Source: Planctomycetota bacterium
GTDB taxonomy: Bacteria > Planctomycetota > UBA1135 > GCA-002686595
Direction: 5' to 3'
Length of the DNA stretch: 64,000 nucleotides
Assembly: GCA_016795325.1 (NCBI GenBank)
Contig: JAEUHY010000015.1
Span: 806,001-870,000, forward strand
A program made the position numbers and the translations under genes. Shown in pieces: positions 3,969 through 30,090 of the stretch. Below the pieces are notes generated by a model. The model was given only the letters and a program-made list of their open reading frames with translations, had not been told where the DNA came from and made no database searches. Position 1 is the first letter of the stretch, and the number at the start of each line of letters is the position of its first letter.

Positions 3969-5744
3969 CTACCAGCGGCGCGCGACGAGCAGCAGGTTGC
4001 GGCAGGCGGCGCCGTCGAGCGGCTTGGCGAAGAAGTAGCCCTGCGCGAAGTCACAGCCCACGTCGCGCAGCAGCGCGAGTTGGTCGGCGGTCTCGACGCC
4101 CTCGGCGATCACCTGCTTGCCGAGGTTGCGGCCGATCATGACGATCGCCCGCACGATCCGCGCGTCGTCGCCGTCGATGGCGCGGTCGACGCCCAGGTGC
4201 TGCACGAAGGAGCGGTCGATCTTCAGCGCGTCGATCGGGAAGCGCTGCAGGTACGACAGGGACGAGTATCCCGTGCCGAAGTCGTCGATGGACAGGCGCA
4301 CGCCGAGTTGCTTCAGGCGCCGCAAGGTGCTCGCCGCCGCCTCGGGGTGGTCGAGGATCGCGCTCTCGGTGATCTCGAGTTGCAGGTGCTCGGCCGGCAG
4401 CTCGGTCTCGCGCAACACCTCATCGATCACGTTCGCGAGGTCCGGCTGCGAAAGCTGCTTGCTCGAGAGGTTGACGCTCAGCGTGCAGGCGCCCGCGCTC
4501 GACTGGCTGCGCCACTGCATGGCCTCGATGCACGCCTCGCGGAGCACCCAACGTCCGAGCGGCTGGATCAGGCCGGTTTCTTCGGCGACGGGGATGAATT
4601 CACCGGGGTCGACCAGGCCGCGTTCCGTCGAGCGCCAGCGGGCCAGCGCCTCGACGCCGCTGACGCGGCCCTCTCCGAGCGCGACGATCGGCTGGTATTG
4701 GACGAACATCTCGCCGCGCTCCACCGCGCGGCGCAGCTCGGCTTCGAGCTGCAGCTGGCGCAGCACGTGAGCGTGCATCGCGGTGTCGAACAGCGCGTGC
4801 CGCGCGCGGCCGCGCGCCTTGGCGCGGTACATCGCGGTGTCCGCGTCGCGCAGCACGTCTTCGGGCCGCTGGTACCCGGTGGTCGAGCAGGCGATTCCGA
4901 TCGACGAGCTCGTGAAGATCTCCTGGCCGCCGATGTCGAACGGCGCGGAGAGTTCCTTCTGGATGCGCTCGGCGACCGTCGTGGCGTCCGAGATGTCCTT
5001 GATGTCGTCCAGCAGCACGGTGAACTCGTCGCCGCCCAGGCGCGCCACGCTGTCGCCGGGGCGCAGCGAAACCTCGAGCCGCCGCGCGACCATCACGAGC
5101 AAACGGTCGCCGGCCATGTGCCCCAGGCTGTCGTTGATCACCTTGAAGCGGTCGATGTCGAGGAACAGCACCGCGAAGGCGAAGTCCTTGCGCCGCGTTG
5201 CGCGCCGCAGCGCGTGGCGCAGGCGGTCGAGGAACAGCGCGCGGTTGGGCAGGTTGGTGAGCGGGTCGTAGAAGGCGCGGTGCGCGAGCTGCTCCTCGGC
5301 CACCTTGCGGTGCGTGACGTCGGTGAGCGAGCCGCCGAACTCCAGCGCCTTGCCCTGTTCATCGCGACCGGCGATGCCGCGGCACACGACCCAGCGGTAC
5401 ACGCCGGTCTCGTGCATCACGCGGTGTTCGTTCTCGAAGTGGCTGGTCAGCCCCTCGATGTGCGCCCTCAGCGCCGACAGCACGCGCTCGCGGTCGTCGG
5501 GGTGCACGCGGTCGAGCCACTCGTTGATGTTCTCGTCGATCTCGTGCTCGGCGTAGCCCAGCAACTCCTTCCAACGCGGCGAGAAGTGCACGCGGTCGTG
5601 CGCGATGTCCCAGTGCCAAAGGCCGTCGTTCGCCGCGCTTTCGACGAGCTCGTAGCGCCGACGTTCGGCGTCGAGCAGTCGTCGCAACTCGACGCTGTCC
5701 AGGGCGCCGGTTGTGGGGCCGGCGAGGGCGGATTGTTCGTGCAT
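3969..5744 (-). CDS. PAS-GGDEF-EAL cyclic-di-GMP signalling protein
   Basis: The 591-aa protein has three domains in order: a PAS/PAC sensor (about residues 30-155, with WHWDIAHDRVHFSPRWKELL and the closing SLTDVTHRK), a GGDEF domain (about 160-330) and an EAL domain (about 340-585). The diguanylate cyclase signature GGDEF is intact at residues 237-241, so synthesis of c-di-GMP is possible. The phosphodiesterase motif is also intact (E365-A-L), with DDFGTGYSSL and AEGVET further on. No RxxD inhibitory site is obvious before GGDEF. No transmembrane segment is visible, so it is probably cytoplasmic. Which activity dominates cannot be told from sequence. It is transcribed alone. Confidence 0.93.
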   Translation of the reverse strand: MHEQSALAGPTTGALDSVELRRLLDAERRRYELVESAANDGLWHWDIAHDRVHFSPRWKELLGYAEHEIDENINEWLDRVHPDDRERVLSALRAHIEGLTSHFENEHRVMHETGVYRWVVCRGIAGRDEQGKALEFGGSLTDVTHRKVAEEQLAHRAFYDPLTNLPNRALFLDRLRHALRRATRRKDFAFAVLFLDIDRFKVINDSLGHMAGDRLLVMVARRLEVSLRPGDSVARLGGDEFTVLLDDIKDISDATTVAERIQKELSAPFDIGGQEIFTSSSIGIACSTTGYQRPEDVLRDADTAMYRAKARGRARHALFDTAMHAHVLRQLQLEAELRRAVERGEMFVQYQPIVALGEGRVSGVEALARWRSTERGLVDPGEFIPVAEETGLIQPLGRWVLREACIEAMQWRSQSSAGACTLSVNLSSKQLSQPDLANVIDEVLRETELPAEHLQLEITESAILDHPEAAASTLRRLKQLGVRLSIDDFGTGYSSLSYLQRFPIDALKIDRSFVQHLGVDRAIDGDDARIVRAIVMIGRNLGKQVIAEGVETADQLALLRDVGCDFAQGYFFAKPLDGAACRNLLLVARRW

Positions 5745-29025: not shown

Positions 29026-29520
29026 CTAGGGCGAGCGCCGCGCGGTCCCGTCGGCCGGCGCGCCAGGAAAGTTCGTCCGGCCGCCCGCTCGCCCGGCACG
29101 CAGGGGGGGCGATCCGTAGCTCGGGCGCGCGGCGTCGAGGCTGCGGTACATGTCGACGCACAGGACGAGTGCGTAGGCCAGGACGCCGCCGAGCTGCACG
29201 ACAGTGGGGAGGTCGACTTCGAGCGCGGAGCACACGAGCCAGGCGGCGTAGAACGCCACCGCCCCCACGCTCCGGCAGCGCTCCTCGAAGGTGGAGTCCG
29301 ACCAAACGCGCATCGTGATGACGAGCGTTGCGAGCACCAACGCCGAGAGTGACACGAGTGTGGCGATGCGGCGCGCGTCGCCCTCGAGGACGAACGTCGC
29401 GACAGACCCGCCGACGAGAATCGTCAGCGCGACGGTCCTCAGCCAGAAGCGCCAGTGTCTCGGGCGCGACTCGTGTTCCGAGTCGATTTCCGAGTCGATC
29501 TCGTCGGGCTCGCTCTCCAC
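29026..29520 (-). CDS. Small multi-pass membrane protein, unrecognised
   Basis: The 164-aa product begins with an acidic stretch (VESEPDEIDSEIDSEHESR), then has four hydrophobic segments: WLRTVALTILVGGSVATFVL, IATLVSLSALVLATLVI, AVAFYAAWLVCSALEV and VVQLGGVLAYALVLCV. The C-terminal tail is basic and Pro/Gly-rich. I chose the GTG at 29520, which lies 4 nt from the end of a 48-bp inverted repeat; an upstream start would require translating through the palindrome. No ribosome site is visible. Family unknown. Confidence 0.6.
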   Translation of the reverse strand: MESEPDEIDSEIDSEHESRPRHWRFWLRTVALTILVGGSVATFVLEGDARRIATLVSLSALVLATLVITMRVWSDSTFEERCRSVGAVAFYAAWLVCSALEVDLPTVVQLGGVLAYALVLCVDMYRSLDAARPSYGSPPLRAGRAGGRTNFPGAPADGTARRSP

Positions 29521-29523
29521 GCT

Positions 29524-29622
29524 GGACGATCGTACGGTGCCAGAGCAATTTGTCTCACGCTTCCGGTGCGCGAGGCGCACCGGAAGCGTGAGACAAATTG
29601 CTCTGGCACCGTACGATCGTCC
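29524..29622. repeat. 48-bp perfect inverted repeat (long palindrome)
   Basis: Bases 29524-29571 pair without mismatch with 29575-29622 around a 3-nt GAG spacer. The arms contain CGTACGGTGCCAGAGC, then the AT-richer CAATTTGTCTCACGC. It fills the gap between yraN (stop at 29624) and the start of the small membrane-protein gene (29520). In RNA it would form a very stable hairpin on either strand. No target-site duplication is evident. Confidence 0.93.
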
Positions 29623-29623
29623 G

Positions 29624-30040
29624 CTAGCGCGAACCCCATTCGTGCACCCGCACGTCGCGCGACGTGCCGTCCGGATCGATCCAGACTTCGACCAGCGCCA
29701 GGCGCGGCGGCGAGCCGCCGCGGTCGCTAGCGCACGCACGCGCCGCCCGTGCGACGCGCGCGCGTTGGCGTGTGCTCAGCCTCGCGCCCGGCGCGAAGTG
29801 GGACGGCGCGGCCCGCGCCAGCGAGGTCTTGACCTCGAAGCACCACAGCTCGCCCCCGCGTTCGGCGACGAGGTCGAGTTCGCCATGGGGCGTCGCCACG
29901 CGCTCGCCGAGCACGCGAAACCCGCGTGCGCGCAACCAACGGGCGCACGCGGCTTCTCCCGCGCGCCCGATGTGGGCGTTGCTCGAGCGCGCGAGCAAAA
30001 CGCGCGTCCAGGCGTAGGGGGCGGCGCTCTGCGGCCGCAT
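29624..30040 (-). CDS. yraN: YraN family (UPF0102) nuclease-like protein
   Basis: The 138-aa protein matches the YraN/UPF0102 family of endonuclease-fold proteins: RAGEAACARWLRARGFRVLG, then TPHGELDLVAERGGELWCFE and VKT, which carries the D/ExK-type metal residues. The C-terminal LSTRQRARVARAARACASDR and RLALVEVWIDPDG also fit. A role in recombination or DNA processing has been suggested for the family, without firm evidence. It follows yajC after 50 nt on the same strand. Its stop codon lies 2 nt from the long palindrome. Confidence 0.88.
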   Translation of the reverse strand: MRPQSAAPYAWTRVLLARSSNAHIGRAGEAACARWLRARGFRVLGERVATPHGELDLVAERGGELWCFEVKTSLARAAPSHFAPGARLSTRQRARVARAARACASDRGGSPPRLALVEVWIDPDGTSRDVRVHEWGSR

Positions 30041-30090
30041 GCGCCGCCGCAGGCGCGCCCACCAAGCGCGCAGTCCCGCGAAGGCGCGCG

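Follow-up and report, generated by a model that had tools for sequence, protein, structure and literature searches.

To our knowledge, the way in which REPINs and related repeats are mobilised has yet to be solved, and RAYT transposases have mostly been studied in Proteobacteria. RAYT-like genes bounded by terminal inverted repeats, some of which form dimers and clusters, have been described as TIRYT/TIRtron (Di Nocera et al. 2013, PMC3733652), and most of these were placed in subclass 2.1 (Quentin et al. 2018, PMC6006769). REPINs show compensatory changes, and pairing of a 5' tail has been suggested to re-form the symmetrical unit (Bertels and Rainey 2011, PMC3116915). Here we describe a palindrome that, judged from sequence comparison, is probably (at roughly 80%) a copy of a dispersed, non-autonomous, REPIN-like repeat belonging to a Planctomycetota RAYT/TIRYT-type HUH tyrosine transposase system. 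As such, it would be a REPIN-like dimer of TIRYT-type ends, with two transposase-recognised ends lying head to head.

The palindrome lies in a 64-kb window, the whole stretch of DNA that was analysed (C59:806001-870000), from an assembly of 6.48 Mb in 64 contigs that is 89.9% complete (the source genome, G000). As the preliminary description had it, the two arms of 48 nt each (29524-29571 and 29575-29622) are 100% complementary on either side of GAG, and they encode no gene. This is by far the longest inverted repeat of the window, the runners-up having about 31 nt at 74%. The palindrome had also been said to fill the entire intergenic gap, which is nearly but not wholly so: 1 base separates the right arm from the minus-strand stop codon of yraN (TAG, 29624-29626), and 3 bases separate the left arm from the candidate GTG start of a small predicted membrane-protein ORF, for which a Pfam search gave no match. 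The repeat proper comprises the inner 91 bp, at 5 nt from the yraN stop and 7 nt from the GTG; the outermost 4 bp of either arm (GGAC/GTCC) are particular to the window locus (Table 1). In the sister species (G001), the membrane-protein ORF and the palindrome are both absent between yraN and its neighbours, so the pre-insertion junction cannot be read there.

Table 1. Features at the palindrome locus, in window coordinates.
Feature	Position	Strand	Basis or remark
Core palindromic element, 91 bp, GATC subtype (GATCGTACGGTGCCAGAGCAATTTGTCTCACGC...-GAG-...GATC)	29528..29618		Matches about 80 dispersed copies; boundaries from comparison of 71 complete copies
Left arm	29528..29571	+	Outer ~20 nt (GTACGGTGCCAGAGCAATTT) are the conserved end, common to RAYT units of relatives
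Loop GAG, 3 nt	29572..29574		Varies among copies
Right arm, reverse complement of left arm	29575..29618	-	Arm comparison
Locus-specific complementary flank, left half GGAC	29524..29527		Flank complementarity over 68 copies
Locus-specific complementary flank, right half GTCC	29619..29622		Flank complementarity over 68 copies
yraN/UPF0102 gene	29624..30088	-	Pfam UPF0102, E=7.9e-11
Small predicted membrane-protein ORF	29026..29520	-	Candidate GTG start at 29520

A repeat family, with other copies of an arm elsewhere in the genome, was one of the options raised by the preliminary description, and it is borne out: the source genome has about 80 copies, a number estimated from pattern matches, and a chance origin of the palindrome is thereby excluded. 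In searches of this genome, arm matches to the core pattern numbered 155, and those to a reversed control pattern 3; with the end pattern, 168 were found against 1 for the control. At 40 scored places, 83-99 bp were matched at 88-100% identity, and 71 complete copies were extracted from the fetched places. The unit is 91 bp long in 62 of the 71 (GATCGTACGGTGCCAGAGCAATTTGTCTCACGCYTCCGG..., a 3-nt loop, then the reverse complement), and 101 bp long with an imperfect centre in six. The end subtypes are symmetrical (GATC/GATC, GGTT/AACC, GAAC/GTTC and GGTC/GACC), and the flanking DNA is unique for nearly every copy. An Rfam search gave only sub-threshold matches, to generic long hairpins. Three copies are found within tandem 357-bp repeats that include a coding-like flank (L027:6772-7576, C24:378271-379075), an arrangement resembling the tandem REPIN clusters described in Pseudomonas.

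The element was searched for in 121 genomes, comprising the source genome and 120 relatives. Full-length matches are found in the source genome and in the sister species of the same genus, shorter ones occur in G026, and G006 and a few others retain only the ends of about 20 bp. Matches of other relatives to the GC-rich centre alone were dismissed as chance. Other Planctomycetota MAGs carry relatives of the element with the same ends (RTACGGTGCCAGAGCAAT), and a search of public genome DNA with a 19-nt end returned 38 stretches, all from Planctomycetota MAGs. An exact 25-mer search of public genome contigs gave no match, because the interior of the element is species-specific, and an IMG/VR search with the element end gave none either. 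Conservation of the ends but not of the interior, as seen in G006, G026 and the public MAGs, is expected if an enzyme reads the ends. In G026, two solo ends 882 bp apart (L095) were considered as a parent element and rejected; they enclose ordinary genes and no transposase.

The sister species carries a 101-bp version of the element, and about 10 of its 38 copies are at positions orthologous to copies of the source genome. Thus, many copies are old. The interiors at these shared sites are mostly of the species-specific type, which suggests replacement or homogenisation inside each genome. Of the options in the preliminary description, recent origin finds support, in the form of recent spread, for the 91-bp subfamily: its copies are highly alike, and the sites shared with the sister species hold 101-bp copies there.

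RAYT homologues are common in the family. Ten aligned RAYT units in relatives are 1106-1256 bp long, with inverted ends beginning RTACNGNGYCAG or a close variant. The proteins match NCBIfam NF047646 with E values of 4e-13 to 2e-16, which is below that model's curated cut-off; of the six proteins checked, all have the HUH motif HFH and five have the Y...NP motif. The long C-terminal extension gave no HTH match in a Pfam search, even at E 10. In the 260 bp upstream of RAYT genes, the motif RTACVGHGYCAG is present at 12 of 30 loci, compared with 2 of 476 control windows; downstream of the genes, in inverted form, it is present at 8 of 29 loci and in none of the 476. In two genomes, the ends of the RAYT unit are the palindrome's own ends: the unit on C16 of G006 ends in TGTTGAATACGGTGCCAGAGCACTTTCATCACAG, which matches the ends of the G006 palindromes (CTGTTGAATACGGTGCCAGAGCAATTTCATCACA), and in G026 the RAYT has an element arm on either side, the two arms being in direct orientation. 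The G006 C16 and G026 RAYTs form a sister clade with full support (100/100). Several of the RAYT unit ends fold as a four-base foot followed by a short hairpin, which is the layout of REP ends.

The source genome has one intact Y1 (RAYT) gene with the motifs HFH and YIDDNP; its protein on C2 matches NF047646 with E=7e-15, again below the curated cut-off. This RAYT is split across contigs, with its left end on C2 and its right end on C64, and its ends (GTACAGAGCCAG) differ from palindrome-type ends at 2 of the first 12 bases. A RAYT with GGTGCCAG-type ends was not found in this 89.9% complete assembly. As the only RAYT found there has GTACAGAGCCAG ends, the palindromes of the source genome may be driven by a RAYT that is absent from the assembly or has been lost, or by the GTACAGAGCCAG-end RAYT with relaxed recognition.

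As in TIRYT/TIRtron, the units of relatives have a RAYT-like HUH transposase gene inside inverted ends, and the terminal sequence also occurs elsewhere in the genome as dimers and clusters (here as dispersed dimers in G006 and G026). Unlike most described TIRs, the planctomycete ends start with RTACNGNGYCAG and do not have GGGGWSAS, a motif absent from 11 unit ends and four element arms. The long near-perfect palindromes with locus-specific complementary flanks are a further difference from TIRYT/TIRtron. Features in common with REPINs and BIMEs are a long hairpin unit built of two inverted ends, tandem clusters, compensatory changes and, in relatives, a RAYT nearby. However, the foot is RTAC and not GTAG/GGAG, the hairpin within each arm is weak, and the stem is almost perfect across 44 bp. 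With neither a GTAG foot nor GGGGWSAS, the family is thus set apart from the GTAG REPs.

In the 62 copies of 91 bp, Watson-Crick pairing is seen at 97.4% of arm positions, against 87.6% with shuffled partners. Arm cells with compensated changes (both sides changed) number 183 against 71 that are mismatched, and 26 of the 62 copies are perfect palindromes. A number of the two-sided changes are each confined to a single copy; this suggests that one arm was copied onto the other, not that two mutations arose independently. The loop triplets vary freely, with at least 20 different ones among the 62 copies. Complementarity continues into the flanks: in the source genome it is found in 66% of 68 copies at positions -1/+1, in 62% at -2/+2 and in 60% at -3/+3, against a background of about 0.27; it falls to 43% at position 4 and to background level from position 5, and the complementary sequences vary by locus. 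In the sister species, the flanks beyond the GGTT/AACC end have complementarities of 0.89, 0.83, 0.78 and 0.47, then 0.25. Target-site duplication was sought at the 68 copies and none was found, direct flank identity at position 1 being only 9%. Elements of G006 (JAEUIA; at L103, L121, L135, L136, L148 and L151) have 25-79 bp of perfect locus-specific mirrored flank, which may reflect true fold-back copying, terminator stems that were already there, or an artefact of short-read assembly.

In the proposed mechanism, a RAYT would act in trans on the element in its single-stranded or cruciform form: it would recognise the RTAC foot and the short hairpin that both ends carry, and would copy or insert the element. 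The palindrome would then be made perfect again by fold-back copying, which takes in one arm and a few bases of flank. Copies would persist at gene 3' ends, where a strong hairpin may do no harm or may be of use in ending transcription or protecting the 3' end of mRNA. The particular step of spread or maintenance by fold-back copying, with the RAYT opening the hairpin foot and the arm plus a few flank bases being copied to the other side, is put forward tentatively. It would produce the perfect match of the arms as well as the complementary flanks that differ by locus and, if true, would represent an insertion footprint not yet described for RAYT-type elements. Fold-back copying would imply a single flank half in the empty site; insertion into a palindromic target would imply an 8-bp palindrome there (GGACGTCC at the window locus). 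In the sister species, the 100 bp preceding an element that stands before a second RAYT gene recurs (96%) 1.26 kb downstream, and this partial pre-insertion target contains the left flank CGTTGGTT without its mirror AACCAACG. This case, single and complex, speaks for copying or pairing rather than for a palindrome already in place. A precise empty site for the element was not found, the orthologous intergenic DNA being too diverged, and nine further loci examined for one had shared sites, another hairpin or unalignable gaps. The planctomycete family offers about 80 similar copies, orthologous copies in a sister species and RAYT units with matching ends, and the footprint (3-4 bp complementary flanks, paired arm changes) is measurable, with different models predicting different outcomes.

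It is possible, although we consider it doubtful, that the palindrome is instead kept mainly as an RNA hairpin, acting as a factor-independent bidirectional terminator or as a 3' stabiliser of mRNA, with its spread being incidental. There is a strong tendency for copies to be placed just after stop codons: according to heuristic gene calls from an ORF caller trained on the window, stop codons are mostly at -2 to +10 bp from the element, and at 15 bp or less in 31 of the 71 copies; for comparison, among intergenic positions of the window, 4.5% have a stop and 5.3% a start no more than 10 bp away. The predicted fold is also very stable (-102.8 kcal/mol), the gap of one convergent gene pair (L032) is occupied by the element in the source genome but by an ordinary 18-bp hairpin in the sister species, and strong hairpins are found in other convergent gaps of the window. 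A stable hairpin right after stop codons is indeed like an intrinsic terminator. However, inspection of the sequence after the window palindrome found no T-tract, near-identical copies are dispersed, and some of them occupy divergent gaps. The same site can have different interiors in the two species, and the RAYT-linked ends are better conserved than the stem interior. For the REPIN-like repeat, the stop-codon placement and the sister hairpin in a convergent gap make a terminator-like or mRNA-end role plausible. Work on E. coli, as cited in PMC12306157, reports that REPs up to 15 nt from a stop codon can stall ribosomes, and thus the placement of the element could also tune expression.

The inverted ends, many copies and lack of coding capacity would also fit a MITE of an ordinary DDE insertion sequence, bacterial MITEs likewise being short non-autonomous repeats. 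This origin is improbable, as the adjacent bases, with 9% direct identity, show no target-site duplication, and the genes bounded by RTACNGNGYCAG ends are RAYTs, linking the family to an HUH and not a DDE transposase. The hairpin is close to gene ends, and the 99 nt of the palindrome are divisible by three with one reading frame open throughout, as might suit a recombination site of the integron attC kind or a palindromic coding insert like the RPEs of Rickettsia. Either has hardly any credibility: the stem is nearly perfect, without the extrahelical bases that define attC, the end sequence is GTACAAC and not RYYYAAC, and the copies are intergenic, with only 2 of 71 inside a called ORF. Assembly fold-back or chimera, which the preliminary description had allowed for, is very unlikely, because flanks differ at nearly every copy, loops are variable and copies imperfect, and the same element type is seen in the separate assemblies of other species and at orthologous sites. 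The extra mirrored flanks of 25-79 bp in some JAEUIA copies do point towards such an error, as do contig ends, at least 20 of the 128 in the source genome being in or beside copies (e.g. C8, C11, C12, C43 and C53). With that many ends at copies, the repeat is a major cause of fragmentation of this assembly, and the case shows that a contig's perfect palindrome of 48 bp need not be an artefact but can be a true genomic repeat, one that itself breaks assemblies. Given the approximately 80 copies and the match of their ends to those of RAYT units in relatives, we regard the window palindrome as probably real and mobile, a REPIN-like element and not an error of assembly.

Additional RAYT-related sequences were observed. 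On C64 of the source genome (L275:10640-11096 and 4068-4868), several tandem truncated copies of the RAYT 3' end with the terminal motif are found downstream of the RAYT, and a decayed partial RAYT copy is located about 6 kb away. The RAYT on C11 of the sister species (L192/L246) is 94% identical to that of the source genome, and its Y...NP motif reads YIDGNS. One genome of family f2 (G073) has 53 Y1-transposase matches, far above the nine other genomes searched. In other genera, perfect palindromes with arms of 77 bp (G016, L264:2527-2683) and 67 bp (G018, L256:2466-2603) are located directly downstream of RAYT genes, and these may be further families of a similar kind.
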